From NCBI RefSeq assembly GCF_003668575.1, contig NZ_RCVZ01000014.1:1-64000 (forward strand): a stretch of DNA of 64,000 bases, written 5' to 3'. The notes under the pieces were generated by a model, which did no database searches, had not been told where the DNA came from, and saw only the letters and a program-made list of their open reading frames with translations. The position numbers and the translations under genes are program-made. Below, piece by piece: positions 16,218-53,911 of this stretch (position 1 is the stretch's first letter; every line of letters begins with the position of its first letter). The DNA comes from Falsibacillus albus (lineage in GTDB: Bacteria > Bacillota > Bacilli > Bacillales > DSM-25281).

Positions 16218-16318
16218 ATAATTTCCCCCTTATAAAAATTCCCCTATAAATGTAAGACCATTATTAACTTTCGCCAATGATTTTCCAATTCCTCCCCAAA
16301 AATGTCGCCAACATTGAA

Positions 16319-16786: not shown

Positions 16787-16807
16787 CTTTATCACCTCTC
16801 ATAAATG

Positions 16808-20060: not shown

Positions 20061-20098
20061 GCAACTTGCAGCGGAAACCAATATTACTCAAATATCAA

Positions 20099-20148
20099 AA
20101 AAAGAGCCGTTCCATCAAGTGCCAGGCACTGAAGGAACGGCTCTTTTT
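20099..20148 (-). terminator. Terminator of the tetR gene
   Basis: A stem of AAAAAGAGCCGTTCC with GGAACGGCTCTTTTT has the inner palindrome GTGCC-A-GGCAC near its top. The 3' arm overlaps the tetR stop codon. Confidence 0.88.
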
Positions 20149-38575: not shown

Positions 38576-39088
38576 TTGTTGAAAGAACACGCTAAATTAA
38601 TGAGTGCATTTGCGGCTTCAGGGGAAATCATCGGACGGAAAAAGCTGCAGAAAATGATTTTCATTGCCAAGAAGATTGCCTTTCCTTTTCAGGAAAAATT
38701 CCAATTTCATTTCTATGGGCCATATTCCGAGGAGTTGACGCTAAGGATCGAGGAATTGTGCAATATGGGCTTCATCCATGAAGTAAAGGAAAAAAAGGGC
38801 GGCTATTATCAATATAAATATTCCGTAACGGAAGAAGGAACGGATTTTTTGAAGATGTATGAGCTTGAAATGCCTAAGCTCGAATCGGTGTTATTGAACA
38901 TGAATGAACAGAATGCGAGATTTTTAGAATTGGTGTCGACGGTGCTGTATTTCAATGATCTTTCCAAGGAAGAAGTACAGGAAAAGGTATTCACGTTGAA
39001 ACGGAAGCAGCGCTATACAGAAGAAGAAATCGATCAGGCATATCAATACATCCAGCAGCTCGCGCAAATCGCACAGCCTGTGCATTGA
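38576..39088 (+). CDS. ywgA: YwgA family protein
   Basis: Protein of 170 residues with the YwgA opening (EHAKLMSAFAASGEIIGRKKLQKMIF) and FHFYGPYSEELTLRIEELCNMGF-type helices. It resembles winged-helix or Panacea-like proteins. The function is unknown. The start is a TTG (38576 or 38579), preceded by AGGAG at a long distance; no ATG fits. It probably follows ywfO in one transcript (64-nt gap). Confidence 0.85.
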   Translation: MLKEHAKLMSAFAASGEIIGRKKLQKMIFIAKKIAFPFQEKFQFHFYGPYSEELTLRIEELCNMGFIHEVKEKKGGYYQYKYSVTEEGTDFLKMYELEMPKLESVLLNMNEQNARFLELVSTVLYFNDLSKEEVQEKVFTLKRKQRYTEEEIDQAYQYIQQLAQIAQPVH

Positions 39089-39093
39089 GATAG

Positions 39094-39140
39094 GCCCTGT
39101 ACCCCTGGTGACAGGCACCAGGGGGCAGGGCTGTTTTTTT
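39094..39140. terminator. Bidirectional terminator with conserved GGTG-ACAGG-CACC tip
   Basis: GCCCTG ... CCCCTGGTG, loop ACAGG, CACCAGGGG ... CAGGGC, then TGTTTTTTTT. It lies between convergent ywgA and ywhB. Confidence 0.92.
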
Positions 39141-39328
39141 TATTCTGCGTCGCTCAGGCGTTTGCCGCCTACCCCGTAATGGCTTTTGCTCATTTCTTCA
39201 ATGAAGACGACGATTTTTTCTTTAGAAGCACCTGTCGTGTCGCTTACGGCATCGGTCACTTTTTCGACTAAGGCTTTTTTCTGCTCATCTGAGCGGCCTT
39301 CGAGCATTTTGACTGTTACGTATGGCAT
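39140..39328 (-). CDS. ywhB: 4-oxalocrotonate tautomerase family protein YwhB
   Basis: Tautomerase of 62 residues. The mature N-terminal proline (MPYVTVKMLEGR) is the catalytic base; Arg11 and the C-terminal GKRLSD region fit the family. It interconverts enol and keto acids, and the physiological substrate is unknown. ATG 39328 follows AGGAG. In-frame codons further upstream are not used. Confidence 0.92.
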   Translation of the reverse strand: MPYVTVKMLEGRSDEQKKALVEKVTDAVSDTTGASKEKIVVFIEEMSKSHYGVGGKRLSDAE

Positions 39329-39579
39329 AGGGAATCTCCTCTCTTTCATATCAAGTTCATGAAAAGTGTATTCCTTTTCACTCGGTCAGGCAAGTGAACA
39401 TTTTTTAGGATATACAAGGTGTATAGAAACGTTTAAAGAGACATACTTATTTAATGAGATTCGGTTCACGTGATGAAAGGCGCTTTCTTTTGTATACTAG
39501 AACACAGAGGTGCAAAGATTGCGTGTGTGGACACGTTGATTTTCGTATTTTACTATAGGGTAAAAAGGAGCTTACATTA

Positions 39580-40230
39580 GTGGGATTATTTTCTCTATCA
39601 ATCCAAGACATTTCAATATTAGCAGCGGTTTTGCTGATCGCTTTTACAGTGCATGAATTTGCACATGCGTTCACAGCCTATAAATTTGGCGACATGACGG
39701 CGAAAAAACAGGGCCGCCTGACGTTGAACCCCATCAGCCATTTAGATCCGCTCGGGACGATCTTCATGTTCATCGCCGGTTTCGGATGGGCAAGGCCGGT
39801 GCCGGTCAACCGACACTTCTTTAAACAGCCCCGGCTGGCCAGCATCATTGTCGCACTGATGGGGCCATTGAGCAACTTCCTCATGGCGCTGATCGGATAT
39901 GCCATCTTATATTTTATTGTCATCAACGGACACGCCATGCAGCTGCCGAGCCTGGTCATGAATTTTTTCCAGCAGTTCATCAGGATCAATTTGGTCTTAT
40001 TTGTGTTCAATCTGCTCCCATTCCCTCCATTGGACGGGTATCGGATCGTGGAAGATTTAGTATCGCCTAGCTTCAGGCCAAAGCTGACGCAATACGAACA
40101 GTATGGAGGCTTAATATTTTTGGTCCTTGTCCTCATTCCGCCGTTGAATGCAGTGACGATTTCACCGATCATCCATGTCGTGCCAAACTATTTCATCCAA
40201 AGCTTCCAAACATTATTTTCATTATTTTAG
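39580..40230 (+). CDS. ywhC: Site-2 protease family membrane metalloprotease YwhC
   Basis: Polytopic zinc protease of 216 residues in the M50 family. The zinc motif HEFAH is in FTVHEFAHAFTAYKFGD near residue 24, and the second metal motif is FNLLPFPPLDGYRIVED near 145. It has about five helices. The substrate is unknown. The start is GTG 39580, 9 nt after AAGGAG. Confidence 0.9.
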   Translation: MGLFSLSIQDISILAAVLLIAFTVHEFAHAFTAYKFGDMTAKKQGRLTLNPISHLDPLGTIFMFIAGFGWARPVPVNRHFFKQPRLASIIVALMGPLSNFLMALIGYAILYFIVINGHAMQLPSLVMNFFQQFIRINLVLFVFNLLPFPPLDGYRIVEDLVSPSFRPKLTQYEQYGGLIFLVLVLIPPLNAVTISPIIHVVPNYFIQSFQTLFSLF

Positions 40231-40277
40231 TGGAAGTGGCTTTATTAAAGAATATGGTTGATTTAAGTCATTTCGGG

Positions 40278-40362
40278 TGTTGATTGGAATGGAAGGTGCG
40301 AGGCTCCGGAGGGATCAGCGGGCATTTAGCGGAAATCACCCTTGCACGAATTTTTACGAATA
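40278..40362. repeat. Family A repeat, short copy between ywhC and ywhD
   Basis: TGTTGATTGGAATGGAAGG and TAGCGGAAATCACC with GTGCGAGGCTCC and a short centre; the AAAGCGAG module is lost. Confidence 0.7.
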
Positions 40363-40415
40363 AAAGTCTTTAAAATAAGCAGCAATAGGATAATGCCGAA
40401 AGGAGACGTTCATTC

Positions 40416-40922
40416 ATGGAACAAGGAAAGAAAAAGAAGGTCGGTTTCAATATTATTAAAAATGATCCGACAGACGGCCATAAGGGCTATGGAATCGGCG
40501 CCCTGAGCCTGGAGAACGTATCGCCGGTGATCATCGACGTTGAAGAAGGGGACGCCCACGTCGATATTGGGGCCATGCACGCAAGGAGTGCAGTTGAAAA
40601 AGGAATCAAATTCACGCCGAATAAAGAGGATTCCCCTGGTGCCAAACCGTATTGGCTCGTTTGGGTGACGATTGACCGCAAGGAAGAGGGTCCATATTAT
40701 GCCGGGGTCACCGCTTGCGAAATGACTGTAAACCGGGAAATCCGCCGAGGCTATAAATCCCTTCCCGAACATGTGAATTTAATGGATAAGTCATTGAAGC
40801 GAAAGATCGTGGTCGATCACATGGATCAAAGGTCAAAAGGCATTTTGAAGGAATTCTTAAGCAAGCATGATGAAAACATCTGGATCAACTCCAGTGAAGA
40901 ACTGAAAATGGGCTTGGAATAG
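40416..40922 (+). CDS. ywhD: YwhD family protein
   Basis: Soluble protein of 168 residues recognised as YwhD by its Lys-rich start and KPYWLVWVTIDRKEEGPYYAG stretch. The function is unknown. AAAGGAGA precedes ATG 40416. It follows ywhC as in B. subtilis, but with a repeat in the gap. Confidence 0.87.
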   Translation: MEQGKKKKVGFNIIKNDPTDGHKGYGIGALSLENVSPVIIDVEEGDAHVDIGAMHARSAVEKGIKFTPNKEDSPGAKPYWLVWVTIDRKEEGPYYAGVTACEMTVNREIRRGYKSLPEHVNLMDKSLKRKIVVDHMDQRSKGILKEFLSKHDENIWINSSEELKMGLE

Positions 40923-41065
40923 AAAGCTGTCAATTCAAAATGACAAATTCTCACAATAATATGTACGAATTGTGACAGTTTTTTGAATTTACTTTGTACA
41001 TCTTGCTGTTAGCCGGGAAAAAAAGTAAAATTTTAAGTACAGTTCGCACAAGTAAAATTAGGACA

Positions 41066-41123
41066 CGAAAAACCTCGAGGCCGCACACCTCGAGGTTTTT
41101 CATATTTGGTGCCTGTCACCAAA
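41066..41123 (-). terminator. Terminators of pbpG (two hairpins)
   Basis: AAAAACCTCGAGG and CCTCGAGGTTTTT (41067-41100) form a strong symmetric hairpin usable for ywhD as well. Next to it TTTGGTG-CCTGT-CACCAAA (41105-41123) repeats the conserved tip. Confidence 0.88.
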
Positions 41124-41131
41124 GGACAGGG

Positions 41132-43201
41132 CTACCATGGAAAAATTCGTTTGTACCATGGTTTTTTCTTTTTTGGAGCAGGTTTGTGCTGGTGTTTCTC
41201 TTCAATCGGTTTGCCTGTATGGACATCGCAGTATTCCGTCGGCTCCGTGCCTTCCTTGAAATAGGTCAGCCTCGATACCGGACAATCTTTCGTCGCAAGC
41301 TTCCCATTATCAGGGTCTACTTGGACGGCTACGACCCCTTTAGGCGGCTTGAAGGCTTGGATCGGTTCGTCTTTCAGCGCCCTCTCCATAAACCTGATCC
41401 AGATGTTCTTTGCATAAAGCTTGTCGGCAGTGAGCGTGATCGGATTCCCTTTGTCATAGCCGGTCCATACTCCAGCGGTCAGCTGCGGGGCGAACCCGAT
41501 CATCCAGCTATCTGAGTCGGTCGTTCCGGATTTCCCGGCATACGGCCTGGACATTTGGCTGATGATGCTGGTGCCTGTGACACTGGCATAATCATTTAAT
41601 TTAGGATCGAACATGCCGGTCATCATTTGCGAAAGCACAAAGTCCGTATCCTTCTCGAGCACCTGATCATGTGCCTGCTCGTCTGAATAGATGACATTTC
41701 CTTTATAATCCTCGACTCTGGTAATGAAGGTAGGTTCAACCTTCTTGCCCCCATTTGAGATCATGCTGTAGGCACCGACCATTTCATCCACTCTTACCCC
41801 TGAAGTACCGAGCGCCAAGGATGGTACTTTTGCCAGCTTTGTTGTAATCCCGAATTGCTTCGCGGTATCGACAAGCGTACCTTCTCCCAGAAAAATGTTT
41901 GTCTTCACTGCAAACACGTTATCCGACAGGGCAAGTGCCTGGGCCAACGTTATTTCATCATTGGCATAGTTGTTATTGAAGTTATGCGGCGTATAGTCTG
42001 GCCTGCCGTCGTCGAATCGGAATGTGGTCACTTCACTGCGCATCGTGGTGGAAGGAGTGAATCCTTTTTGCAAGGCAGCATAATAGAGCAAAGGCTTCAT
42101 CGTTGATCCTGGCTGCCGGACGGCTTGAACCGCCCGATTATATGGGCTTTTTTCATAATCCCTTCCACCAATGAGGGCCGTCACGTATCCATTGGTCGGG
42201 TCCATCGCGACAAATCCGAGTTGAATGTCCGATTGATCGGAAATGGTTTCCTTCATTACTTCCTCGGCGATCTGCTGCTGTTTCTTGTCCAAGGTAGTGT
42301 ATACCCGCAAGCCCCCAAGTTCGATGGTTCGCTCATCCAATCCAACTTTGGTTTTGAGTTCATGCTTGACCACATCATTAAAATAAGGCGCAATGGCAGC
42401 GTGCTGTGCAGGGAATTTACCGTAAAACTGTAAATGCTCCTGTGCAGCGGCATGCAACTGGGATTTCGTGATGTAGCCAAGCTTGTTCATCGTTTGCAGT
42501 ATGATTGCCTGCCTCTTTTTCGCTTTATCAAAGGAAATGAAAGGCGAGTAGATGCTTGGGCCTTTAGGGATTCCGGCCAGCATGGCAGATTCCCCTAAGG
42601 TGAGGTCCTTGGCATCTTTATTGAAATAATAGCGGCTGGCCGCCTCCACTCCATATGCGCCATGGCCGTAATAAATTGTATTTAGATAGCCTTCGAGAAT
42701 TTTATTTTTTGAATAGTTCATTTCCAGGCGAAGTGTATAGAAGGCTTCCGTCAATTTCCTGTTCCACGTTTTATCGCGGGTAAGATATAAATTCCGGGCA
42801 TACTGCTGGGAAATCGTGCTCGCACCCTCCACCTTCGACATCGCTTTTACATCAGCGAGAGCGGCGCCTGCGATGCGTTTGAAATCAAATCCATGATGCT
42901 CATAGAAATTCTTATCTTCAATGGCAATCGTGGCGTCCCTTAAATAAGGGGAGATGTTTTCATACCTCACCCAATACCGCTTCTGTCCATTATTGCTTTC
43001 GCCGATGACCGAGCCATCATTCGCGTAGTACAGGGACGACTGAGGTACCGAGAGTGGTGGGGGCCCCTGGATTTTGGCGAACATCAGCACGCCGGCGACC
43101 AGAATCAAGCCCACCGCGGTGAAAAATCCCCCGATTATGATAAATGCCCTCAAATACTTCATCGTCTTCCGAAACCTTATTCGAGCGATCTCCAAACCCA
43201 C
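41132..43201 (-). CDS. pbpG: Class A penicillin-binding protein 2D
   Basis: Bifunctional peptidoglycan synthase of 689 residues. One N-terminal membrane helix (about 16-42) is followed by a glycosyltransferase domain with the catalytic Glu in IAIEDKNFYEHHG (E95) and EGASTISQQYARNL. The transpeptidase domain has SxxK in PGSTMKP (S366, K369), SDN in ALSDNV and KSGTT. A Lys/Pro/Trp tail ends it. B. subtilis PbpG acts in the spore. The start is uncertain: GTG 43201 is annotated, and ATG 43162 would also keep the helix. Confidence 0.93.
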   Translation of the reverse strand: MGLEIARIRFRKTMKYLRAFIIIGGFFTAVGLILVAGVLMFAKIQGPPPLSVPQSSLYYANDGSVIGESNNGQKRYWVRYENISPYLRDATIAIEDKNFYEHHGFDFKRIAGAALADVKAMSKVEGASTISQQYARNLYLTRDKTWNRKLTEAFYTLRLEMNYSKNKILEGYLNTIYYGHGAYGVEAASRYYFNKDAKDLTLGESAMLAGIPKGPSIYSPFISFDKAKKRQAIILQTMNKLGYITKSQLHAAAQEHLQFYGKFPAQHAAIAPYFNDVVKHELKTKVGLDERTIELGGLRVYTTLDKKQQQIAEEVMKETISDQSDIQLGFVAMDPTNGYVTALIGGRDYEKSPYNRAVQAVRQPGSTMKPLLYYAALQKGFTPSTTMRSEVTTFRFDDGRPDYTPHNFNNNYANDEITLAQALALSDNVFAVKTNIFLGEGTLVDTAKQFGITTKLAKVPSLALGTSGVRVDEMVGAYSMISNGGKKVEPTFITRVEDYKGNVIYSDEQAHDQVLEKDTDFVLSQMMTGMFDPKLNDYASVTGTSIISQMSRPYAGKSGTTDSDSWMIGFAPQLTAGVWTGYDKGNPITLTADKLYAKNIWIRFMERALKDEPIQAFKPPKGVVAVQVDPDNGKLATKDCPVSRLTYFKEGTEPTEYCDVHTGKPIEEKHQHKPAPKKKKPWYKRIFPW

Positions 43202-43234
43202 TCACCCCGCTTTTTGTATTTTTAGGCCCAGCCC

Positions 43235-43255
43235 CTTTGGTGACAGGCACCAAAG
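43235..43255. repeat. GGTG-ACAGG-CACC hairpin upstream of pbpG
   Basis: CTTTGGTG, loop ACAGG, CACCAAAG. Unlike the other copies, this one lies between divergent genes, about 35 nt before the pbpG start, and so would be in its leader. Confidence 0.75.
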
Positions 43256-43339
43256 CGCACAGCCGTCTCCGCGTTTCTACTAGTATGTTTATTTCGGTTT
43301 GCTTTTAAACGCGTTTCTATGAAAAAATAAGGCTGATTT

Positions 43340-43480
43340 CTTAAAGATTGTTGTTTTTAATAGTTTTTCTGATGAAAATTCATCATAGGGTGTTGATTGG
43401 AGCTGGAGGCTCAAAGCCCGCCCCTTGGAAAGCGAGCCTCCTGCAGCGGAAATCAACCTTGTACATACTTTACGAAAAGA
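43340..43480. repeat. Family A repeat upstream of speE
   Basis: The outer arm TTAAAGATTGTTGTTTTTAA, middle arms GTTGATTGGAGCTGG and CAGCGGAAATCAACC, CTTGGAAAGCGAGCCTCC, and outer arm ACTTTACGAAAAG. The inner module is absent. Confidence 0.8.
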
Positions 43481-43649
43481 GCTGAAAATAAAAATTTTTT
43501 CTTGCAATTTTGCTAGATTCAACTATACTTTTTGTGATGTTTGTATTTATGATGTTAGGGAAGGATAACAGTAAATGTCGTGTGCGCTCGCACAGGATAT
43601 TTCATATACAGAAGCCTGACGATACTGAAGTGAAAGGAAGAGGATAAAA

Positions 43650-44480
43650 ATGAGCGGAATTTGGTTTACAGAGAAGCAAACGAAAGATTTTGGCATTACG
43701 ATGAAAGTGAATCGCACTTTACATACAGAGCAAACGGATTTTCAAAAGCTGGACATGGTTGAAACAGCAGAGTGGGGGAATATGCTCCTTTTGGATGACA
43801 TGGTCATGACCTCCAAGGTTGATGAGTTCGTCTACCATGAAATGGTGGCGCACGTTCCATTGTTCTCACATCCAAACCCGGAAAACGTCCTTGTCGTTGG
43901 CGGGGGAGACGGCGGTGTCATCCGTGAAGTCCTTAAGCACCCAAGCGTGAAGAAAGCAACGCTTGTTGAAATAGACGGGAAGGTAATCGAATACTCGAAA
44001 AAGTATCTTCCGGAAATTGCCGGCGATTTAGAAGATGAAAGAGTGGAAGTAAAAGTCGATGACGGATTCTTGCACATCGCCCAAAGCGAAAACGAATATG
44101 ATGTCATCATGGTTGATTCCACAGAGCCGGTTGGTCCTGCCGTGAACCTTTTCACGAAAGGCTTCTATGCGGGGATTTCAAAAGCGTTGAAAGAAGATGG
44201 AATCTTCGTGGCACAGACGGACAACCCTTGGTTCAAAGCGGATTTGATCCGCGAAGTGCAGCGTGATGTAAAAGAGATCTTCCCGATCACAAGATTGTAT
44301 ATTGCCAACATACCGACCTACCCAAGCGGCATGTGGACGTTCACAGTCGGGTCCAAAAAGCATGATCCACTTGAAGTAAGCGACGACCGCTTCCATGAAA
44401 TCGAAACAAAGTACTATACAAAAGAACTTCACAAAGCGGCATTTGCCCTTCCTAAATTTGTGAAGGACCTTACAGTATAA
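43650..44480 (+). CDS. speE: Spermidine synthase (polyamine aminopropyltransferase)
   Basis: Enzyme of 276 residues that transfers aminopropyl from decarboxylated SAM to putrescine. Motifs: [16 protein letters not shown] (near 80), [25 protein letters not shown], and [17 protein letters not shown] precedes the ATG. It is followed by speB, as in B. subtilis, but a palindromic terminator lies between. Confidence 0.96.
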
Positions 44481-44494
44481 TCGCTTTATATTGA

Positions 44495-44520
44495 AGGGGT
44501 CAGACCCGGGTCTGGCCCCT
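44495..44520 (+). terminator. Terminator after speE
   Basis: AGGGGTCAGACCC and GGGTCTGGCCCCT form a near-perfect 26-nt palindrome, followed by ATTATTTG. The T run is poor, so it may be partial and allow read-through into speB. Confidence 0.65.
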
Positions 44521-44556
44521 ATTATTTGACCAAAAACTATAAAAAGGATGATATAA

Positions 44557-45429
44557 ATGCGTTTTGACGAAGCATATTCAGGCAATGTGTTCATTCGAAG
44601 CCATAAAAATTACGAAGACAGCCAGGCGGTACTTTACGGAATGCCGATGGATTGGACGGTCAGCTATCGTCCGGGATCCCGTTTCGGCCCGACCCGCATC
44701 CGCGAAGTGTCGATCGGTCTTGAGGAATACAGTGCTTACCTGGACCGGGAGCTTGAGGAAGTCCGCTATTTCGACGCAGGCGATATCCCGCTGCCATTCG
44801 GCAACGCCCAGCGCAGTCTGGACATGATCGAAGAGTTTGTCGAAAAATTATTAAACGACAATAAGTTTCCGCTTGGCATGGGCGGCGAACACCTTGTTTC
44901 TTGGCCAGTCATGAAAGCTGTATCAAAGAAGTACAAGGATTTGGCGATCATCCATATGGATGCCCATACCGATCTGCGCGAGGAGTATGAAGGGGAGCCG
45001 TTGTCCCATTCAACACCGATCAGAAAGATTGCCGAGCACATCGGACCGGAAAATGTCTACTCATTCGGAATTCGTTCAGGAATGAAGGAAGAGTTCCAAT
45101 GGGCAAAAGAAAACGGCATGCACATCTCCAAATTTGAAGTGCTTGAACCGTTGAAAGAAATTCTTCCTAAACTTGCAGGCAGACCGGTCTATGTCACGAT
45201 CGATATCGACGTCCTTGACCCTGCACATGCACCTGGGACGGGAACGGTTGACTGCGGAGGAATCACGTCCAAGGAACTATTGGCTTCCATCCATGAAATC
45301 GCACGTTCACAAGTCAATGTCGTCGGTGCTGATTTAGTCGAAGTGGCGCCGATCTACGACACGTCTGAACAGACAGCCAATACAGCCAGCAAGCTCATCC
45401 GCGAAATGATCCTTGGCTGGATTAAATAA
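44557..45429 (+). CDS. speB: Agmatinase
   Basis: Manganese ureohydrolase of 290 residues: agmatine to putrescine and urea, giving the substrate for SpeE. Metal motifs are GGEHLVSWPV, HMDAHTDLREEY and DIDVLDPAHAPGTGT. AAAAGGATG precedes ATG 44557. SpeB and SpeE together supply spermidine through the agmatine route. Confidence 0.96.
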   Translation: MRFDEAYSGNVFIRSHKNYEDSQAVLYGMPMDWTVSYRPGSRFGPTRIREVSIGLEEYSAYLDRELEEVRYFDAGDIPLPFGNAQRSLDMIEEFVEKLLNDNKFPLGMGGEHLVSWPVMKAVSKKYKDLAIIHMDAHTDLREEYEGEPLSHSTPIRKIAEHIGPENVYSFGIRSGMKEEFQWAKENGMHISKFEVLEPLKEILPKLAGRPVYVTIDIDVLDPAHAPGTGTVDCGGITSKELLASIHEIARSQVNVVGADLVEVAPIYDTSEQTANTASKLIREMILGWIK

Positions 45430-45443
45430 TATTTTTTATAAGA

Positions 45444-45486
45444 GGGTGACAGGCACCATCCAGAAAATGGATGGTGCCTGTCACCC
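45444..45486 (+). terminator. Terminator of speB
   Basis: GGGTGACAGGCACCATCCA pairs over all 19 bases with 45468-45486 around GAAAA. Both arms carry the GGTGACAGGCACC word, one on each strand. Confidence 0.88.
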
Positions 45487-45544
45487 ATTGCATTTTCGTG
45501 AAATTATTTTTATACTTATTAAGTTATACAAGTCGTAAAAGGAT

Positions 45545-46006
45545 GTGGATGCTTTGGCAGCAGCGAGAGCAGAACAAATACCTATTAAAATCGAGCTGAC
45601 GACGAAAATTCAGCATGATAATGAACAAGAAACCTATGAACTGACCGCGTTTGGTCAATACTACCAAAAAGACAATGCGGTTTATTTAAAATATGATGAG
45701 GTCCAGGAAGAAGGAACGGTCCATACGATCGTGAAAATTTCTGGGAATGAAGCCGTCATTCTGCGCAGCGGAGCCCTCAAGATGAGGCTGAGCTTCCTGA
45801 ATGGGAAACCGAAGAACGGATCTTATGAAAGCCCTTATGGAACGTTGATGCTTATTTCGAAAACGAGTGAGCTCAAGCACTCTCAAGAAAAAGAGAAGGC
45901 AGTCGACGGTCGGTTCCAATTAAAATACCAGCTGATTCTGCAAGGATCATCTGTAGGTGTATACGAAATGAACATCGATTACAAGGAGGAACAAGAACGG
46001 TTATGA
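45545..46006 (+). CDS. ywiB: DUF1934 family protein YwiB
   Basis: Beta-barrel-like protein of 153 residues in the YwiB/DUF1934 family (calycin-like). Recognisable strands are [36 protein letters not shown] and [11 protein letters not shown]. The function is unknown. Start GTG 45545 or TTG 45554; both have weak sites. The stop overlaps the argS start (ATGA), so the two are translationally coupled, as in B. subtilis. Confidence 0.85.
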
Positions 46007-47673
46007 ACATAGTAGAGCAGGTTCAGGAATTATTGAAAGACGAAATCAAGGCTGCAGTCTTGAAGGCAGAATTGGCGACAGAGGAACAGATCCCGGAAGT
46101 TATCTTGGAAACGCCGAAGGAAAAAACGCATGGGGATTATTCCACGAACATGGCAATGCAGCTGGCGAGAGTGGCAAAGAAAGCTCCCCGTATGATTGCG
46201 GAAGATATCGTCAATCACTTTGATCTTTCAAAGGCATCCATCGAAAAAATCGAAATCGCAGGTCCAGGGTTTATCAACTTTTACATGAACAATAGCTATT
46301 TGACGAACTTGATTCCTACCGTTCTCCGTTCAGGCGATGATTATGGCCGGTCTGACGCTGGGAAAGGCCAAAAAATCCAGGTCGAATTCGTTTCGGCAAA
46401 CCCGACGGGAGACCTTCACTTGGGACATGCCCGCGGAGCGGCTGTCGGAGATTCCCTATGCAACGTGCTTGAAAAAGCAGGATATGATGTAACGCGTGAA
46501 TATTACATCAATGATGCCGGCAATCAAATCCACAATCTTGCTGTTTCCGTTGAAGCCCGCTACTTCCAGGCGCTTGGCCTTGAGAAGGACATGCCGGAAG
46601 ACGGATATCATGGAGCGGATATCATCGAAATCGGCAAGACTTTGGCACAAGAACACGGAGACAGATTTGTCCACACGGATGAAAAAGAACGCTATGAATT
46701 TTTCCGTGAATATGGATTGAAATATGAGCTTGCCAAGCTGCAAGATGACTTGGAAGATTTCCGTGTGCCATTTGATGTATGGTATTCCGAAACGTCCCTT
46801 TATAAAAATGGGAAGATCGACGATGCCCTCAAGACGCTTCGCGAAAATGGCCATGTGTTCGAGGAGGGCGGTGCTACATGGTTCCGCTCCACGACCTTCA
46901 ATGATGACAAGGATCGCGTCCTGATCAAGAACGATGGCTCCTATACGTATTTAACGCCGGACATTGCGTACCATAAAGACAAATTCAACCGCGGCTACGA
47001 CAAGGTCATCAACATTTGGGGAGCCGACCACCACGGCTACATCCCTCGTATGAAGGCGGCAATCGAAGCACTTGGTTTCAATCCTGATAACCTGGAAGTT
47101 GAAATCATTCAAATGGTGCAATTGTATAAAGACGGCGAGAAAATGAAGATGAGCAAACGGACAGGAAAAGCTGTCACCTTGCGTGAATTGGTCGAGGAAG
47201 TTGGCCTCGATGCAGTCCGCTACTTCTTCGCAATGCGCAGCGGCGACACGCACCTGGACTTCGATTTGGATCTGGCCGTTTCCCAATCCAATGAAAATCC
47301 AGTCTACTATGCACAATATGCACATGCGCGCATCTGCAGCATCTTGCGCCAAGGCGAAGAAGCGGGCTTTACCGCTTCAGACGATGCAGACTTCAGCTAC
47401 ATTAAGGCTGAAAAAGAAATGGAAGTACTGAAAAAAATGGGTGAATTCCCACAGGTAACGGCAGAAGCGGCTGAAAAACGCATTCCGCACCGCATTGCCA
47501 ATTATATCAATGATTTGGCTGCTGCGTTCCACAGCTTTTACAACGCGGAAAAGGTCCTTGATCCAGAACAACCGGAACAAACAAAGGCCCGCTTGGCATT
47601 GATCAAAGCTGTGCAGATCACCCTTAAGAATGCACTTGCATTAATCGGGGTTGCAGCACCGGAAAAAATGTAA
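46003..47673 (+). CDS. argS: Arginyl-tRNA synthetase
   Basis: Class I synthetase of 556 residues. The HIGH motif appears as [19 protein letters not shown] occurs as [12 protein letters not shown], and the C-terminal DALR anticodon domain follows. It also has the N-terminal Arg-S domain. GGAGG precedes ATG 46003, within the ywiB end. Ends at a strong terminator. Confidence 0.97.
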
Positions 47674-47685
47674 TATGTTCATACG

Positions 47686-47719
47686 AAAACCGGAATCCTT
47701 CAGGGGATTCCGGTTTTTT
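47686..47719 (+). terminator. Terminator of argS
   Basis: AAAACCGGAATCC pairs with GGATTCCGGTTTT around TTCAGG, then TT. Confidence 0.93.
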
Positions 47720-47746
47720 ATATGAGATTTATATAAAAATACTCGA

Positions 47747-47985
47747 GTTTACCAGGTCCGAAAACAGATGCCCATCAAATTGATTGTTGCTGGCGACGGT
47801 CACCAGCTCCGAAATCTGATTCCCGTCAATATGATTTTTGCTCGTTATGGTCACCAGAACCACAATCTGGTTCCCCTCAAAACGATTTTCGCTCGGGATG
47901 GTCACCAGAACCACAATCTGGTTCCCCTCAAAACGATTTTCGCTTGTGACGGTCATCAGAACCACAATCTGGTTCCATGAAAAAC
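47747..47985. repeat. Tandem array, about five units of 51 nt
   Basis: Units start at 47747 (degenerate), 47798, 47849, 47900 and 47951 (partial), exactly 51 nt apart. Each begins GGTCACCA and forms CCAGA-N7-TCTGG, then CCCTCAAAACGATTTTCGCT. Open frames cross it on both strands because the period is a multiple of three. No ribosome site or known protein supports a gene. The remaining gap to 48186 holds only a promoter candidate. Confidence 0.88.
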
Positions 47986-48109
47986 ATGTAAAAATGCTTT
48001 TATCGATTATTCGACACTTTCCGACTAAGTTCGTCACCCTCTCTTCAGCACTGAATAATCATCCTAAGTATGATTCCCGATGGATGCTTGAAAATAAGGA
48101 GAGCAAAGT

Positions 48110-48137
48110 TGATAATAATATGGAAAACTTTAGAATA
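48110..48137 (+). promoter_or_regulatory. Promoter candidate of the XapX gene
   Basis: TTGATA (48110-48115), 16 nt, TAGAAT (48132-48137); about 50 nt before ATG 48187. Confidence 0.5.
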
Positions 48138-48186
48138 AATTCAAGGAACAACACCGTAATTTCACGATTAAAAGGGGAATGATGAA

Positions 48187-48366
48187 ATGAAAGTTGTAGC
48201 TCTTGCCTTGCTGACCGGCTTTATCGTCGGCTTCATTTTTGCCGTATTCCGGCTGCCGATCCCGGCTCCACCTGCACTGGCGGGGATTACGGGCATCGTC
48301 GGCATTTATTTGGGATTTAAAGTATATGAGTGGATTTTGCCCATGATCCAGGATCTGCTGAAATAA
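48187..48366 (+). CDS. XapX domain small membrane protein
   Basis: A 59-residue protein, under many ORF cutoffs. It has two hydrophobic helices: VVALALLTGFIVGFIFAVF, then ALAGITGIVGIYLGFKVYE. The linking PIPAPPA motif is diagnostic of the XapX/DUF1427 family. Function unknown. GGGGAA precedes ATG 48187; an ATG at 48182 stops after two codons. Confidence 0.82.
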   Translation: MKVVALALLTGFIVGFIFAVFRLPIPAPPALAGITGIVGIYLGFKVYEWILPMIQDLLK

Positions 48367-48368
48367 AT

Positions 48369-48410
48369 AAGGTATGCCCCTTGGTGCCTGTCACCAAAGG
48401 GGCATACCTT
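48369..48410. terminator. Bidirectional terminator with conserved tip
   Basis: AAGGTATGCCCCTTGGTG, loop CCTGT, CACCAA(A)GGGGCATACCTT with one bulged A, T-rich on both sides. It lies between the convergent XapX gene and the PP-loop gene. Confidence 0.88.
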
Positions 48411-48413
48411 GTT

Positions 48414-49073
48414 TTAATATAGTTCTGCATAGTGGAAGCGGTCGAATTTTATGTATGAGCCTTTTACATCAAAGGAAACGGGTGTATCAAATAGGGGGCC
48501 GTCATAGACAAATGTATGGAATTCCCCGTTTTCACCGCATGGATCGACTTGGTCGGGGAGGGAGTCCAAGAAGGCTTGATTGTACTCGGCGCCGGTAAAA
48601 GAAGGATCAAGCTGATCACTGTCGACGCAAATGATGGTTGCTTTAAAGCCGGCATTCAAAAAGGCCTGGCTGCTTACCTCACTCGTCATCCCCCAAAGTG
48701 GGAAAATCGGCTGCAGACCTGTATCGGCAAGATTCTTTTCACGGTACTTCCTGATATCTTCAAGAAATAGGTCGCCGAATGCCATATATTCATGGCCGGA
48801 TTGGACAAGGTTCTGAATCTCATTTTTCATCACTTTTTCATACACATCATTGGAGACTTTTTCGTCGAACCAAATCTCTTTTAGTGGAATCCCCAAAGAA
48901 GAAACCTGCTTCTGCAGCAGATGATGGGGGATGTCATGCATCAATACCTTTTCACTCTTGGCATTCAGTGTCGTTAAAAGTGAGGAAACATTGAATTCGC
49001 CGCTCTTCAGCAGGTTATACAGCATCAATGTGCTGTCGCGGCCGCCGCTCCAAGAAACACAAACTTTTTTCAT
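48414..49073 (-). CDS. Dph6-related PP-loop ATP pyrophosphatase
   Basis: Protein of 219 residues. The PP-loop SWSGGRDSTL (residues 6-15) is that of N-type ATP pyrophosphatases. The EYMAFGDLFLEDIRKYREK and PIFPLWG motifs are those of the DUF71/diphthine-ammonia ligase family (COG2102). Bacteria have no diphthamide, so the target is something else. The start is ATG 49073 or 49082, both after AAGGAG. Single gene next to uvsE. Confidence 0.85.
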   Translation of the reverse strand: MKKVCVSWSGGRDSTLMLYNLLKSGEFNVSSLLTTLNAKSEKVLMHDIPHHLLQKQVSSLGIPLKEIWFDEKVSNDVYEKVMKNEIQNLVQSGHEYMAFGDLFLEDIRKYREKNLADTGLQPIFPLWGMTSEVSSQAFLNAGFKATIICVDSDQLDPSFTGAEYNQAFLDSLPDQVDPCGENGEFHTFVYDGPLFDTPVSFDVKGSYIKFDRFHYAELY

Positions 49074-49126
49074 TATGGCCATCGCTCCTTTTCTGCAAGT
49101 TTACCATACAGAAAGAACCGAATCCC

Positions 49127-50080
49127 TCACCATTTTAAAACCGAGCCAGTCAGACGCTTGACACCTCGGATTCCTGCGACATCCTCAATCAATTTCAGCA
49201 TGGCCAAATCCTTGTTTTTAGCCTCGATCATAATATCGAAATCCTTGCCATATTCCTTGGCCATTGTTAAAAATGGACGGACGAAATCAAGAGAAACATT
49301 GTCCGCATGGGAGCGGAATGTTTTTTCAGATTTTGGGGAAGAAAAGTGGACCTTCGGAACAGTTGCTTTCTGACTCCATGTATCATAGATCCTCGGCCAA
49401 AGAAGTGAAAGCTCTTCCTCGCAAGGGTTGGCGAGGTGATGATGATAATCGAGTATCATGGGAATGCCCTGTTTTTCACATGCCAGCAGCGTCTCTTCGG
49501 CATTATATGTTTTATCGTCATTTTCTAGGGTCATGATTTTCTTGATTTTGTCGGGGATCCTGGTCAGATTTTCATGAAAGCGGACGAGGGTCGTTTCTTT
49601 ATCCCCGTATGTCCCGCCGATATGGATATTGATGATGCCTTGGTCGGCGACATCCATCGCTTCAAGCATCCGGTAGTGGTAGTCCATATCCTTCAACGCA
49701 TTCTCCGTCACCTCATCCCGCGGGCTTGTAAACAAAGTGAACTGGTTCGGATGGAAGCTCACTCTTATGTCAAAAGCCTTGATCAGCTGCCCGAGTTCCT
49801 TCCACTCCTTTTGGAAGGGAGTGATGAAATCCCACATCACTTCAGGGTGTGTGGCCAATGGAACCAGTGAACTTGAAAGGCGGTAGAGGGATACTTGGTG
49901 GGCGGCATTGTAAAATAGGATCCGCTTTGTATTGTGAAGATTTTCTGCGGTCACTGCCAATAACTTTTCTTTCCGCTCGGATTCAGGAAGCTTTTGATAA
50001 CGTGCAAAGGTTAATGTTTTTGACGGACTGGCGTTCCAGAGAGCCAAAGCATTTGCTACATAGCCAAATCGAATCTGCAC
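49127..50080 (-). CDS. uvsE: UV DNA damage endonuclease
   Basis: TIM-barrel metal endonuclease of 317 residues that nicks 5' of UV photoproducts and abasic sites. Motifs: RFGYVANAL, RVSFHPNQFTLF, NIHIGGTYGDKE, TLENDDKTYN, PMILDYHHH and KVHFSSP. The start is GTG 50080, 6 nt after AGGAGG; the frame runs 19 codons further upstream without support. B. subtilis YwjD is the counterpart. Confidence 0.94.
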   Translation of the reverse strand: MQIRFGYVANALALWNASPSKTLTFARYQKLPESERKEKLLAVTAENLHNTKRILFYNAAHQVSLYRLSSSLVPLATHPEVMWDFITPFQKEWKELGQLIKAFDIRVSFHPNQFTLFTSPRDEVTENALKDMDYHYRMLEAMDVADQGIINIHIGGTYGDKETTLVRFHENLTRIPDKIKKIMTLENDDKTYNAEETLLACEKQGIPMILDYHHHLANPCEEELSLLWPRIYDTWSQKATVPKVHFSSPKSEKTFRSHADNVSLDFVRPFLTMAKEYGKDFDIMIEAKNKDLAMLKLIEDVAGIRGVKRLTGSVLKW

Positions 50081-50108
50081 AACAGACCTCCTATTAAAAA
50101 AGAGTAGT

Positions 50109-50138
50109 AGATTTTCACTCCAGGATGCTCGCTTCAAT
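50109..50138. repeat. Family A repeat fragment
   Basis: GATTTTCACTCCAGGATGCTC, GCTTCAATTAG only; half of one middle arm and a core end. Confidence 0.5.
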
Positions 50139-50194
50139 TAGTTATTTCAATAATGAGTTGGAAGATATTTTTAGAAAACAGCCTGAAAAAAATC

Positions 50195-51406
50195 CTAAAG
50201 CAGTGTTTGGATGGACTTTGCAAGAGCTTCTTTCAAGACGGCTTTTTTTCGCAGCTGCTTGAGCTCATCAAAGGTCAACTGGTGGGAATCGCCCATGTCC
50301 TTATCCATCACTTCCATTACCCGTCCAATGAATACTGGATCATAAATAAAACAGTTCATTTCATTATTTAATAAAAAGCTTCGGCGATCAAAGTTTGCCG
50401 TGCCGATGTCACACATTTTCCCGTCAATGATCAATACTTTAGCGTGATAAAATCCATTCAGAAACTGATGGACCAAAGCCCCGCGCTTGATGACCTCCCA
50501 TAGATAGGGATAGGAAGCTTCCTTTACTAGCGGATGATCGGCCTTTTCAGGAACGATGACCTTTAGTGTCACGCCGCGGTCCATCGCAGACAGCACTTCT
50601 TTGAATACCTTCTTGGTCGGGATGAAATACGGCGTCCCGATATAAAGCGATTGCTTGGTCTCGCGAAGCAATCGGCAAAGCTCTTCCTCCATTCGGACAC
50701 CCTCTGAAGGGAAATGCATATGTTCGGTGCTCCCTTTGGGCATTACGCTGAAATCAGGATGTCGATAATCATCCTTTTGCTTGGAAGAACGCTTCCAATC
50801 GATGAGGAACTCTTGATGGAGGTCTTCCACACCTTCCCCCTCCATTCGCAAATGATAATCGCGCCAAGGGGATAGCTTTGGCTTATCATCGATGTATTCC
50901 TTCCCGACATTGTAGCCGCCAAGGTAGCCGATCTTCCCGTCAATGACGGTGATTTTGCGGTGGTTGCGCTGTTGGAGAGAAAAAAAGAAGTAGGGGAAAT
51001 AGGGTCTGTTGCAGAATTCGAATCGTACCCCTGCATCCTGTGCTTTTTTTAGCGCACCTTTATCGATTTTGTGTCCCCCGATGTAGTCCACGAGCAATTT
51101 GACTTCCAGGCCCTGTTTCGCTTTTTGTTCGAGCAGTGCCAGGAAAGAGCGGCTGAAATCATCGTCCTTGACGATGTAAAAAAGAGTATAGATCTGTGTC
51201 GTGGCTGCTTTGATATCAGCAAACATCAGTTCAAAAAGCTCCGGTCCGCTCGCAATGATGTCCATGCTGCTGGACCGTTTTGGATAGGTTCTTACTGCGG
51301 CCGTCTTAATGTATTTTTTTAGTCCGAGTTCAAAATCAAGAATCAATAGCAAAATAAGTACGATCAGAATTCCGATTATGATTCCGCTGATTGCTAGCCA
51401 TCCCAT
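50195..51406 (-). CDS. clsB: Cardiolipin synthase family protein YwjE
   Basis: Membrane-anchored phospholipase D superfamily enzyme of 403 residues. One N-terminal helix (about 3-25) is followed by two HKD motifs: HRKITVIDGKIGYLGG and HAKVLIIDGKMCDIG. It is expected to condense two phosphatidylglycerols to cardiolipin. ATG 51406 follows GTGAGG by 8 nt; the longer frame to 51442 lacks a site. The position between uvsE and ywjF matches ywjE in B. subtilis, one of several cls-like genes, so the symbol is tentative. Confidence 0.87.
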   Translation of the reverse strand: MGWLAISGIIIGILIVLILLLILDFELGLKKYIKTAAVRTYPKRSSSMDIIASGPELFELMFADIKAATTQIYTLFYIVKDDDFSRSFLALLEQKAKQGLEVKLLVDYIGGHKIDKGALKKAQDAGVRFEFCNRPYFPYFFFSLQQRNHRKITVIDGKIGYLGGYNVGKEYIDDKPKLSPWRDYHLRMEGEGVEDLHQEFLIDWKRSSKQKDDYRHPDFSVMPKGSTEHMHFPSEGVRMEEELCRLLRETKQSLYIGTPYFIPTKKVFKEVLSAMDRGVTLKVIVPEKADHPLVKEASYPYLWEVIKRGALVHQFLNGFYHAKVLIIDGKMCDIGTANFDRRSFLLNNEMNCFIYDPVFIGRVMEVMDKDMGDSHQLTFDELKQLRKKAVLKEALAKSIQTLL

Positions 51407-51616
51407 GGGCCGAACCTCACTTCTATGTAAAGGTAGTGTCAATTGATTATATTGGCATAGTAAAAAACTTTATTCGTTTAATCCCGCTTGGTATCTGCTG
51501 CGAAACAGTGCGGGATGTAAAACTGTACCTATATTAGAATTCCCCAACAACGAAAGGAACAAACAGAATAATGTCGAATTGTAATAAAAGAATGGGAAAA
51601 CATTTTTAGAAATGTG

Positions 51617-51644
51617 TTGACTGAATGCTCATTCATTATATAAT
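51617..51644 (+). promoter_or_regulatory. fadF promoter with FadR-like operator in the spacer
   Basis: TTGACT (51617-51622), 16 nt, TATAAT (51639-51644). The palindrome TGAATG-CT-CATTCA (51622-51635) lies between them. Its half-sites equal those of the B. subtilis FadR box, though the centre is 4 nt shorter. The rest of the 51407-51740 gap shows nothing else clear. Confidence 0.75.
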
Positions 51645-51740
51645 GGAACTATACAGCGTTATCAGAAAATTTATTTCTTTTTAAAAGTTTGAACAACGGG
51701 GATTTACAGTAAAAATAGCTGAAAGGGGAGATCTACGGAG

Positions 51741-53858
51741 ATGAATGGGCTGCTTTGGGTTAATCTTATTGCATTTCTTCTTGTAACCGCTTACGCAATC
51801 AGTTTGTTTGTGTATGTCGTCAAAACGAGAATCCAATATATCAAACTCGGAAAAAAAGTCGAGTTCGATAACAATGTCAAAGAGCGCTTGAACAAAATCT
51901 GGGTGAATGTGTTCGGCCAGAAGAAATTATTGAAGGATAAAAAGAGCGGATCGATTCATGTCATGTTCTTTTATGGATTTTTACTCGTCCAGTTTGGGGC
52001 GATCGATTTTATTTGGAAGGGGATTAATCCAGGATCGCATCTACCGCTGGGACCGTTGTATCCTGCTTTTACATTCTTCCAGGAAATTGTGACATTGGTC
52101 ATTTTATTCGCGGTTTGCTGGGCGTTTTACCGCCGCTATATCGAAAAGCTTGTCCGTTTGAAGCGCGGATTCAAATCAGGTCTGGTGCTTTTATTCATTG
52201 GAGGGCTTATGCTTTCCGTCTTGATCGGAAACGGGATGAGCATCATTTGGCACGGCGAGGAGCTGTCATGGACTGAGCCCGTGGCGTCCTTGGTCGCGAC
52301 GGTATTCGGAGCGATTGGAAAAACGGCTTCCATCACGATTTTCTATTTTGCCTGGTGGGTGCATTTGACGTTCCTTCTCGGGTTCTTGGTTTACGTACCA
52401 CAGTCCAAGCATGCCCACTTGCTTGCAGGACCTGCGAACGTTTATTTTAATCGCCTTGAAAACGTCGGGAAATTGAAGCCGATCGATTTTGAGGATGAAT
52501 CACAGGAATCGTTCGGTGTCGGCAAGATTGAAGATTTCACGCAGCTTCAGTTGATCGATCTGTACGCATGTGTAGAATGCGGCCGATGCACGAATATGTG
52601 TCCAGCGACCGGAAGCGGAAAAATGCTTTCGCCGATGGACTTGATCGTGAAGCTTCGCGATCATTTGACGAACCACGGTGCGGTTGTCACATCCAAACAG
52701 CCATGGGTGCCGACCTTTGCTTTCTCCAAAACGAAAGGCAATCAATTGGCGCTGGCCAGTGCCGGCCAGGGGGCTGAAGAGGCTGCTGCAGGATTATCCT
52801 ACAGTCCAAGCTTGATCGGCGATGTCATCACGGAAGAAGAGATCTGGGCATGTACGACATGCCGCAACTGTGAAGATCAATGCCCGGTCATGAATGAACA
52901 CGTCGATAAAATCATCGACCTTCGCCGCTATCTTGTACTGACGGAAGGGAAGATGGATGCAGATGCCCAAAGGGCGATGCAGAATATCGAACGTCAAGGA
53001 AACCCGTGGGGATTGAACCGCAAAGAGCGCGAGAATTGGCGCGAAGCACGCGAAGATGTCCATGTGCCGACAGTGAAAGAAATGAAAAAAGCCGATGAAT
53101 CATTTGAATATTTATTCTGGGTAGGCTCCATGGGTTCATTTGATAACCGAAGCCAAAAAATCGCGCTATCGTTTGCCAAGCTGTTGAATGAAGCGGGTGT
53201 GAAGTTCGCGATTCTCGGCAACAAGGAGAAAAACTCAGGAGATACGCCGCGCCGTTTAGGAAATGAATTCTTGTTCCAGGAGCTGGCCACGCAAAATATT
53301 GCGGAGTTTGAAAAGAACGAAGTGAAGAAAATCGTGACGATCGATCCGCATGCCTACAACATCTTTAAAAATGAGTATCCGGATTTCGGACTCGCCGCAG
53401 AAGTTTACCACCATACAGAGCTGCTAGCGAAGCTGGTGGAAGAGGGGCGCCTTAAGCCTAAGTTTGAAGTCAATGAAACGATCACGTTCCATGACTCCTG
53501 TTATTTGGGCAGATATAACGAAGTCTACGATCCGCCGCGTGAAATCCTAAAATCAATCCCTGGCGTGAAATTGATCGAAATGGAGCGCAACCGGGAAAAA
53601 GGAATGTGCTGCGGTGCAGGAGGCGGCTTGATGTGGATGGAAGAAGATACAGGCCACCGCGTCAATGTTGCACGGACGGAGCAGGCTCTCTCCGTCAATC
53701 CATCGGTCATCAGCTCAGGCTGTCCTTACTGCTTGACGATGCTTTCCGACGGAACAAAAGCAAAAGAAGTAGAGGAAAGCGTCAGCACATATGATGTAGC
53801 CGAGCTTCTCGAAAAAGCCGTGTGCGGGGACGGCAGCAAAGAAACCCTCGTATCCTAA
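51741..53858 (+). CDS. fadF: Iron-sulfur electron transfer protein of fatty acid oxidation
   Basis: Membrane-bound protein of 705 residues. Six hydrophobic segments (about 1-240) are followed by two 4Fe-4S motifs, CVECGRCTNMCP (near 277) and CTTCRNCEDQCP (near 371). Two CCG domains come last (DSCYLGR near 585, GMCCGAGGG near 623). It is like heterodisulfide reductase D/E and probably passes electrons from acyl-CoA dehydrogenases/ETF to menaquinone. AAAGGGGAG precedes ATG 51741. Same as ywjF, upstream of acdA in B. subtilis. Confidence 0.92.
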   Translation: MNGLLWVNLIAFLLVTAYAISLFVYVVKTRIQYIKLGKKVEFDNNVKERLNKIWVNVFGQKKLLKDKKSGSIHVMFFYGFLLVQFGAIDFIWKGINPGSHLPLGPLYPAFTFFQEIVTLVILFAVCWAFYRRYIEKLVRLKRGFKSGLVLLFIGGLMLSVLIGNGMSIIWHGEELSWTEPVASLVATVFGAIGKTASITIFYFAWWVHLTFLLGFLVYVPQSKHAHLLAGPANVYFNRLENVGKLKPIDFEDESQESFGVGKIEDFTQLQLIDLYACVECGRCTNMCPATGSGKMLSPMDLIVKLRDHLTNHGAVVTSKQPWVPTFAFSKTKGNQLALASAGQGAEEAAAGLSYSPSLIGDVITEEEIWACTTCRNCEDQCPVMNEHVDKIIDLRRYLVLTEGKMDADAQRAMQNIERQGNPWGLNRKERENWREAREDVHVPTVKEMKKADESFEYLFWVGSMGSFDNRSQKIALSFAKLLNEAGVKFAILGNKEKNSGDTPRRLGNEFLFQELATQNIAEFEKNEVKKIVTIDPHAYNIFKNEYPDFGLAAEVYHHTELLAKLVEEGRLKPKFEVNETITFHDSCYLGRYNEVYDPPREILKSIPGVKLIEMERNREKGMCCGAGGGLMWMEEDTGHRVNVARTEQALSVNPSVISSGCPYCLTMLSDGTKAKEVEESVSTYDVAELLEKAVCGDGSKETLVS

Positions 53859-53865
53859 AAGAAAG

Positions 53866-53911
53866 CCAGCCCTGCCCCTTTGGTGACAGGCACCGGGGGG
53901 TGGGGCTGTCA
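53866..53911 (+). terminator. Terminator of fadF with conserved tip
   Basis: AGCCCTGCCCC ... GGTG, loop ACAGG, CACC ... GGGGTGGGGCTG. The T run is weak (GTCAAAT), so read-through is possible. Confidence 0.65.

Follow-up and report, generated by a model that had tools for sequence, protein, structure and literature searches.

Why should hairpins beside different genes of one bacterial genome, on lower stems that vary from copy to copy, all carry the same tip? The question is raised by a stretch of 64,000 nt from Falsibacillus albus (contig NZ_RCVZ01000014.1, positions 1 to 64,000; the window in what follows), in which the tip GGTGACAGGCACC recurs. A preliminary description of this DNA called the hairpins terminators and proposed that their tip is either bound by a protein or a small mobile palindrome. 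We find that the tip belongs to a genome-wide family of repeats with distinct anatomies, that two transposase genes are flanked by copies, that the tip is associated with such genes across the order, and that the copies lie between genes, near 3' ends, on stems that covary. The hairpins are probably non-autonomous repeats resembling REP (repetitive extragenic palindromic) sequences and REPINs, spread in this Bacillales genome by single-strand transposases (Y1, HUH) of the RAYT (REP-associated tyrosine transposase) type.

The tip and its three forms

The exact tip occurs seven times in the window, at 39107, 43239, 45445 and 53882 on the plus strand and at 41108, 45473 and 48383 on the minus strand, the copies at 45445 and 45473 forming an inverted pair; all six places named in the preliminary description carry it. 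When up to two mismatches were allowed the window gave 12 matches, against a mean of 0.68 and a maximum of 4 in shuffled sequence. The preliminary description had suggested a genome-wide list of the tip with its flanks. Exact copies number 177 in the genome (4.49 Mb), from which the reversed control pattern is absent, and flanks were examined for 148 of the 177. The broader pattern GGTGNCNGGCACC gave 237 strand hits genome-wide and added 30 palindromic sites with GGTGCC[A/T]GGCACC. Two related tips had also been described, at 16319 and 20099: the first is present at 16336 as GGTGCC-T-GGCACC, one of these 30 sites, and the second, at 20119, is a shortened relative, GTGCC-A-GGCAC.

Three forms can be distinguished. 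Nearly two thirds of the examined copies (98 of 148) make up 49 inverted pairs, 48 with a length of 41 bp and one with 37 bp. These form-A palindromes consist of two inverted tips around ATCCA-N5-TGGAT and read GGTGACAGGCACCATCCA-N5-TGGATGGTGCCTGTCACC; their ends, about 5 nt each, are rich in A on one side and in T on the other. Form A is discrete, the consensus vanishing past about 5 nt beyond the ends, and its loop occurs in nearly balanced orientation (GAAAA in 16 and TTTTC in 14 of the 49). The 50 single copies comprise 18 decayed or partial form-A elements and 32 of form B, which has one ACAGG tip on arms of about 14 nt and folds as a single hairpin of about 41 bp; a few have a second tip alongside. 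Form C, examined at 24 of the 30 sites, is likewise a single hairpin of about 41 bp, with a CC[A/T]GG tip and arms resembling those of form B. The pair at 45444 is the form-A element of the window and the remaining five exact tips are form B; the site at 45444, earlier drawn as one tip on a lower stem, is actually a pair of tips in inverted orientation, spaced 28 bp apart on either side of ATCCAGAAAATGGAT. The GTAG (GT[AG]G) foot that defines the REP GTAG superfamily is absent from the form-A consensus, and among the 32 B hairpins GTAG or CTAC occurs anywhere in 5 and GTGG or CCAC in 11. At L035:3357 and 3385 a form-A palindrome has both tips of the C type (GGTGCC...GGCACC), which links the tip variants.

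Transposase genes flanked by the repeats

Three genes in the genome encode a Y1_Tnp domain (PF01797). RAYT1 (L032:1315-1869, minus strand), a Y1/HUH transposase of RAYT type, is intact and 184 aa long, and its flanks are form-A palindromes, one at 1273-1313 directly past the stop and one at 1914-1954, 44 bp before the start. In RAYT2 (L033) one frameshift interrupts the first part of the gene, and the tips that flank it, at 1286 and 1895, are of form B; the arm type of the upstream copy is the same as that of other form-B arms. The arrangement by which REP/REPIN systems are recognized, a transposase gene flanked by its own repeats, is therefore present in both cases, with form A at RAYT1 and form-B tips at RAYT2. 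The third gene (L031:1471-2256, 261 aa) has no tip within 3.3 kb and gives a weak C-terminal HTH_28 match, below the cut-off; the open reading frame (ORF) directly before it presumably encodes a ComM-type AAA protein. Form-A copies are clumped, many of them close to the intact RAYT gene (genome G000, contigs C2 end, C3:430-468k, C8, C10 and C14), and none of the 49 listed form-A sites lies on contigs C1 or C4-C7.

Several lines of evidence place RAYT1 among these transposases. PF01797 is above its cut-off in RAYT1 and RAYT2 (53.1 bits against a cut-off of 23 in the Y1/HUH test), and Y1_Tnp is the only Pfam domain of RAYT1. The best NCBIfam match of RAYT1 is REP_Tyr_transpos (NF047646), with an expect score of 8e-17. 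The motif H60-x-H62 and the tyrosine Y119, corresponding to the HUH motif and catalytic tyrosine of Y1 enzymes, are invariant in 21 of 21 aligned homologues, and a profile of these 21 has a single PDB match, TnpAREP 4er8 (E 6.7e-8), indicating kinship to TnpAREP of E. coli.

Homologues of RAYT1 were found in 169 of 299 genomes of the order (E 1e-10). Neighbourhoods were analysed for the best 80 of at least 547 confirmed loci, from Planococcus, Ureibacillus, Sporosarcina, Lysinibacillus, Alkalihalobacillus, Virgibacillus, Anoxybacillus and other genera. Fragments of the tip headed the words enriched beside these 80 genes, with TTCGACAAA and others ranking next. When up to one mismatch was allowed, a tip lay within 250 bp of the RAYT gene on 40 of 160 sides, compared with 7 of 158 sides at 1.7-2 kb. 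Four tip variants track the RAYT tree, requiring 11 changes for 33 labelled rows where 300 shuffles required at least 13; tip-class labels were available for 34 of 83 and 33 of 81 rows, and shared host ancestry contributes to the match. In a tally of 58 genomes, three or more tips were present in 12 of the 13 with a close RAYT (E <=3e-36) and in 8 of the 45 others (Fisher 1.5e-6); the tally was made by hand, with G058-G060 left out and both thresholds set after the tables had been seen. Copy number is patchy across the order, from 0 to 177 for one tip and from 0 to 113 for the other. The word TTCGACAAA was present at 18 loci near RAYT genes and at 20 in an eightfold larger far set (L055-L081, L085-L162); in many cases it lies just beyond the tip hairpin, at a distance of a few bases, and in other genera it may be a second component of the element.

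Lower stems, gene ends and the window sites

When arms are aligned by their distance from the tip, a consensus emerges. TG stands at -9 or -8 in 36 of the 64 arms of form B and in 24 of the 44 of form C (34 of 60 and 24 of 42 when arms with a second tip are left out); at every other position its count is 4 or less. Both B and C copies also have C at -4 and -6, and information drops past about -14. This common consensus suggests arms that belong to the repeat and have drifted in step, and not unrelated host stems. The claim that the lower stems differ completely yet pair well thus needs division: they do not differ completely, since a consensus extends to about 14 nt, and pairing is strong at 39107, 48383 and 53882 and weak at 41108 and 43239. 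The suggestion that the flanks of a palindrome evolve into stems finds no support, because arms with a shared consensus seem to belong to the repeat itself; free evolution of neutral flanks is rejected on the same ground.

Pairing of the arms was assessed by exchanging them between copies, and covariation, which the preliminary description had proposed to examine, was borne out. With gapped folding, all 32 B hairpins averaged -24.2 kcal/mol with their own arms and -19.8 kcal/mol with swapped arms; for 24 C hairpins, including one double-tip pair and one A-type pair, the values were -29.7 and -19.4 kcal/mol. None of 5000 shuffles was as good for either form. The B copies are split, with the own arm among the best 4 in 15 of 32. 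Covariation was scored in the 37 of 54 B and C hairpins with usable stems, a selection that excludes weak and double-tip copies and so favours pairing. In this sample 113 cells were changed on both sides, compared with 63.4 in shuffles, and the covariation score of 0.314 (shuffles 0.184, slid partners at most 0.229) was reached by none of 500 shuffles. The excess was weaker for pairs changed on both sides (28 of 500 shuffles) and for further pair types (14 of 500). Mismatches of the G-T and A-C types in the 54 hairpins (13 and 10) are uninformative, the strands not being oriented by transcription.

For comparison, the C tip was examined in three other genomes, G020, G029 and G051 (20, 10 and 11 copies), where its flanks are constant, short or other. 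Own arms were slightly better there than swapped arms, with 10, 46 and 33 of 3000 shuffles as good, respectively. Since the advantage in these three is only slight, strongly variable paired stems mark the Falsibacillus albus genome among the four compared. In G020 (L207-L224), GGTGCCTGGCACC tips often stand beside GGGAC-N-GTCCC hairpins, another arrangement of the same tip.

Placement was analysed for 90 elements in the window and 20 further stretches, with ORFs called by length only. The elements are high in copy number (177 exact copies) and intergenic, as is typical of REPs and REPINs: 87 of the 90 lie outside ORFs, and the other 3 are inside, within 32 bp of an ORF edge. Copies lying commonly inside genes or far from 3' ends, which the preliminary description had named as evidence that would tell against it, are therefore not what these 90 present. 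Among the elements outside ORFs, 34 of 46 form-A and 20 of 25 B and C copies are within 60 bp of a 3' end, compared with 22.5% of random intergenic positions. Six of 48 form-A copies and two of 22 form-B copies lie between divergent ORFs.

The sites in the window are as follows (MFE, minimum free energy).

39087-39138, plus strand: form-B hairpin with tip at 39107-39119; 21 pairs, outer A-U pairs among them, and a T-rich tail, MFE -36.3; tip 18 bp past the stop of ORF 38576-39088
41063-41105, minus strand: separate terminator-like hairpin without the tip, adjoining the tip at 41108
41108-41120, minus strand: exact tip on a weak lower stem (degenerate form B), MFE -12.8; 11 bp past the stop of minus-strand ORF 41132-43201
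43225-43264, plus strand: degenerate form-B hairpin with exact tip at 43239-43251, MFE -16.4; between divergent ORFs, 37 bp before a start
45444-45486, no strand: form-A palindrome (REPIN-like) with tips at 45445-45457 and 45473-45485; 19 pairs; 15 bp past the stop of ORF 44557-45429
48365-48414, minus strand: form-B hairpin with tip at 48383-48395; 22 pairs, A/T-rich ends, MFE -31.2; tip 18 bp past the stop of minus-strand ORF 48414-49082
53867-53908, plus strand: form-B hairpin with tip at 53882-53894; 18 pairs, no T-tract, MFE -32.8; tip 23 bp past the stop of ORF 51741-53858
16318-16366, minus strand: form-C hairpin with tip at 16336-16348, downstream of minus-strand ORF 16361-16795 (marR is a label of the preliminary description only)
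20098-20149, minus strand: terminator-like hairpin with shortened tip GTGCC-A-GGCAC and a minus-strand T-tract, adjoining ORF 20148-20795 (tetR, likewise a label of the preliminary description only)

The hairpin with the tip at 20119 is the weakest member of this list and may be unrelated to the family. At 41108 and 43239 the copy's own right arm ranks 32nd and 23rd, respectively, among 32 candidate arms.

Terminator potential is present in part of the population. Among 48 form-A elements, TTT lies within 6 nt on at least one strand in 36 and on both strands in 26, and 12 of 32 B copies have a sense-side T-run of 4 or more. A consensus scan of the window that allowed no bulges found 40 terminator sites (20.8 in shuffles) and, of the six named places, recovered 45444 alone. 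When the sites were read for a stable GC-rich stem and a T-tract behind a gene, 39107 and 48383 fitted and 45444 fitted partly, while 41108, 43239 and 53882 did not. Judged on these features, 39107 and 48383 look like good candidates for intrinsic terminators and 45444 like a fair one, so that two or three of the six look like intrinsic terminators, and some copies behind genes probably act as transcription stop signals. The label of terminator therefore fits some copies and not others. The tip at 43239 lies between divergent ORFs and not at a 3' end, 53882 has no T-tract, and 41108 stands beside the separate hairpin at 41063-41105, which is probably the actual terminator at that spot.

Origin of the family and known systems

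One genome of the same genus shares synteny with most of the window, at about 65-83% identity block by block. The exact tip is missing at 8 of 8 corresponding spots there (those for 48383 and 53882 were placed by offset within aligned blocks), and no hairpins with the family's arms were seen at the 8. The spots for 39107 and 20119 have other hairpins with T-rich tails. The spot for 45444 (L183:10135-10856, G001:C6:141135-141856) has about 0.7 kb of direct repeats peculiar to that genome and a variant tip, GTGACAGTCACC. As judged from the alignments, the absence of the tip from all eight spots shows turnover and not a precise empty site.

Several observations weigh against spread by RAYT-type transposases. 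The comparison with the same-genus genome revealed no transposition event and no precise empty site, its intergenic DNA, at about 77% identity, rarely aligning letter by letter; nor did the joined flanks of 48 form-A elements match a within-genome empty site in the 0.48 Mb searched. RAYT1 scores 61.4 bits against NF047646, under the cut-off of 80, and because of this score it is called RAYT-type here and not a member of that family. Most sampled RAYT loci have no tip (exact tip at 9 of 80, general pattern at 14 of 80), genomes G002 and G051 carry tips and have no RAYT match at 1e-10, and C tips are numerous in G020 and G045, where the RAYT is only a distant one. In the arms, ungapped pairing of form B did not rise above shuffles (251 of 2000 over 14 nt, 193 of 2000 over 20 nt), and for 14 of the 32 B copies, including the ones at 41108 and 43239, the own arm came 13th or lower. 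The stability of B stems is weakly higher in copies with T-runs (p 0.04), and does not differ significantly between copies near to and far from 3' ends (p 0.12). Finally, the copies were collected by the exact tip, so that identity of the tip is given by construction, which limits any description of form A as young.

Four other explanations were considered. It is improbable that the family spread by another route, such as recombination or a different transposase, and that RAYT genes carry copies at their ends by chance. The genomes with tips and no RAYT match, and the many RAYT loci with no tip, would fit this explanation; however, the intact and the broken transposase both carry copies on both flanks, the tip is enriched near RAYT genes, and its variants agree with the RAYT tree, an agreement to which kinship of the hosts may contribute. 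The idea that only the 13-mer is mobile, and that it entered loops of terminators which the host already had, the stems being ordinary host stems, would account for a fixed tip on lower stems that vary and pair copy by copy, and for the bias toward 3' ends. We regard it as quite improbable, and insertion into unrelated terminator loops is mostly rejected, on the consensus that B and C arms share when measured from the tip, which counts heavily. The same arm type recurs upstream of RAYT2, and hairpins with such arms were not seen at the eight same-genus spots.

The remaining two explanations assign the tip a function as a signal. If it were read in RNA by an RNA-binding protein or an RNA polymerase factor and held by selection on transcripts, copies would be expected just behind stop codons, where they are found, some of them with T-tracts. 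Yet many copies are palindromic as DNA, their two tips being inverted and neither orientation preferred, some stand between divergent ORFs, the tip flanks transposase genes in several genera, and orthologous genes of the same-genus genome lack the exact tip at all eight spots, which together make an RNA signal very unlikely. A DNA uptake signal like the DNA uptake sequence (DUS) of Neisseria is also a short fixed word placed at 3' ends, and the DUS is likewise found as inverted pairs that form terminators. Uptake is rejected here as extremely unlikely, on the clumping of the copies, their placement (3 of 90 in genes) and their tie to transposase genes; to our knowledge, uptake words are also far more numerous than the tip.

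Spread by a RAYT-type transposase could proceed as follows. The enzyme would recognize the GGTG-ACAGG-CACC mini-hairpin where DNA is single-stranded, as on the lagging strand, and copy the element into new places, where insertions would survive chiefly just behind stop codons. The earlier suggestion that a protein binds the tip could then hold in a modified form, the likely binder being the RAYT transposase on a single-stranded DNA hairpin; that of a small mobile palindrome is supported by the repeat family, the flanked transposase genes and the RAYT association. The intact gene and the outer halves suggest that form A is the younger population, served by the intact transposase, and form B may belong to the broken second one, its copies aged and their arms diverged. 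Forms B and C might stem from central deletion of inverted pairs such as C3:384081/384096. The stable palindrome with T-rich ends of many form-A copies could serve as a two-way intrinsic terminator. Copying errors can mend imperfect palindromes, and such palindrome-correcting replication errors, or selection for termination or transposition, may keep the arms complementary while their letters drift. A broader proposal is more tentative, and we hold it to be somewhat doubtful: that a Bacillales RAYT lineage recognizes its repeats by a fixed tip instead of a GTAG foot and seeds two-way terminators whose arms drift yet stay complementary, so that a transposase renews the terminator stock of its host, which turns over between species of one genus.

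The comparison with known systems draws on the available portions of the papers cited. Among the matches listed from the open-access literature, judged by title and abstract beginning, none reported a repeat that has this tip and is linked to a RAYT gene, or a REP-RAYT system of Bacillales, and the tip string returned no bacterial repeat report among the matches listed for it. GTAG repeats have been assigned to Proteobacteria, Cyanobacteria, Chloroflexi and the PVC group (PMC3733652); the available text of that paper does not contain Firmicutes or Gram-positive and mentions Bacillus twice, both times for the bcr1 element. None of the terms tried for the phylum Bacillota occurs in the available text of PMC2817692, PMC6006769, PMC8266576 or PMC8049555, and RepRanger (PMC12306157) includes Bacillus subtilis in a broad palindrome count in text from which the word RAYT is absent. 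The absence of a GT[AG]G foot is not in itself new, because repeats of classes 2.6 and 3 without it have been reported (PMC6006769). What is probably new here, within the literature covered, is a RAYT-REPIN-like system in Bacillales (Bacillota) that has no conserved GTAG foot and keeps the hairpin tip constant instead.

The low-GC Firmicutes terminator stem-loops (PMC1590033) resemble the present hairpins in being stable, A-rich on the 5' side and T-rich on the 3' side, placed at gene ends and possibly two-way; the available text does not describe them as one fixed-tip family or as linked to a transposase. TIRtrons and TIRYTs (PMC3733652, PMC6006769) are RAYT relatives with inverted repeats that lack GTAG, some with small repeat families, and their terminal inverted repeat motif GGGGWSAS is close to the form-A end (A/G)GGGTGAC. 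Unlike TIRYTs, which mostly belong to subclass 2.1 and have C-terminal helix-turn-helix domains (PMC6006769), RAYT1 has Y1_Tnp as its sole Pfam domain, and the Falsibacillus repeats are hairpins with a fixed tip. The window also contains, at 44495-44520, a palindrome, AGGGGTCAGACCCGGGTCTGGCCCCT, that matches the TIRYT motif GGGGWSAS; its word GGGGTCAGACCC has 10 copies in the genome and 0 in reversed form. The double-foot REPs of TnpAREP subclass 2.4 (PMC6006769) are, like forms B and C, long single hairpins, possibly produced by central deletion of an inverted REP pair; the Falsibacillus repeats differ in having no conserved GT[AG]G foot.

The closest parallels are the REP/REPIN and RAYT (TnpAREP) systems of E. 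coli, Pseudomonas and Stenotrophomonas (PMC3116915, PMC3686654, PMC2817692, PMC8266576, PMC8049555), whose short palindromes are likewise present in high copy as singles and inverted pairs, whose Y1/HUH transposase gene is flanked by its own repeats, and of which a genome can hold more than one transposase-repeat pair. In two of three such systems the letters of the loop are reported to matter for cutting (PMC8266576). The Falsibacillus repeats differ in having no conserved GTAG or GTGG foot, in keeping the inner tip as their fixed part, and in their Bacillota host. Their copies are placed where terminators sit; the intact and the broken transposase in one genome offer a natural set for following how transposase-borne hairpins become regulatory gene ends, and the same genome lets the pairing of arms be followed while their letters change. 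In the papers cited, REP/RAYT systems are mainly those of Proteobacteria, usually with a GTAG foot, and the same logic appears here in several genera of Bacillales, with a constant tip.

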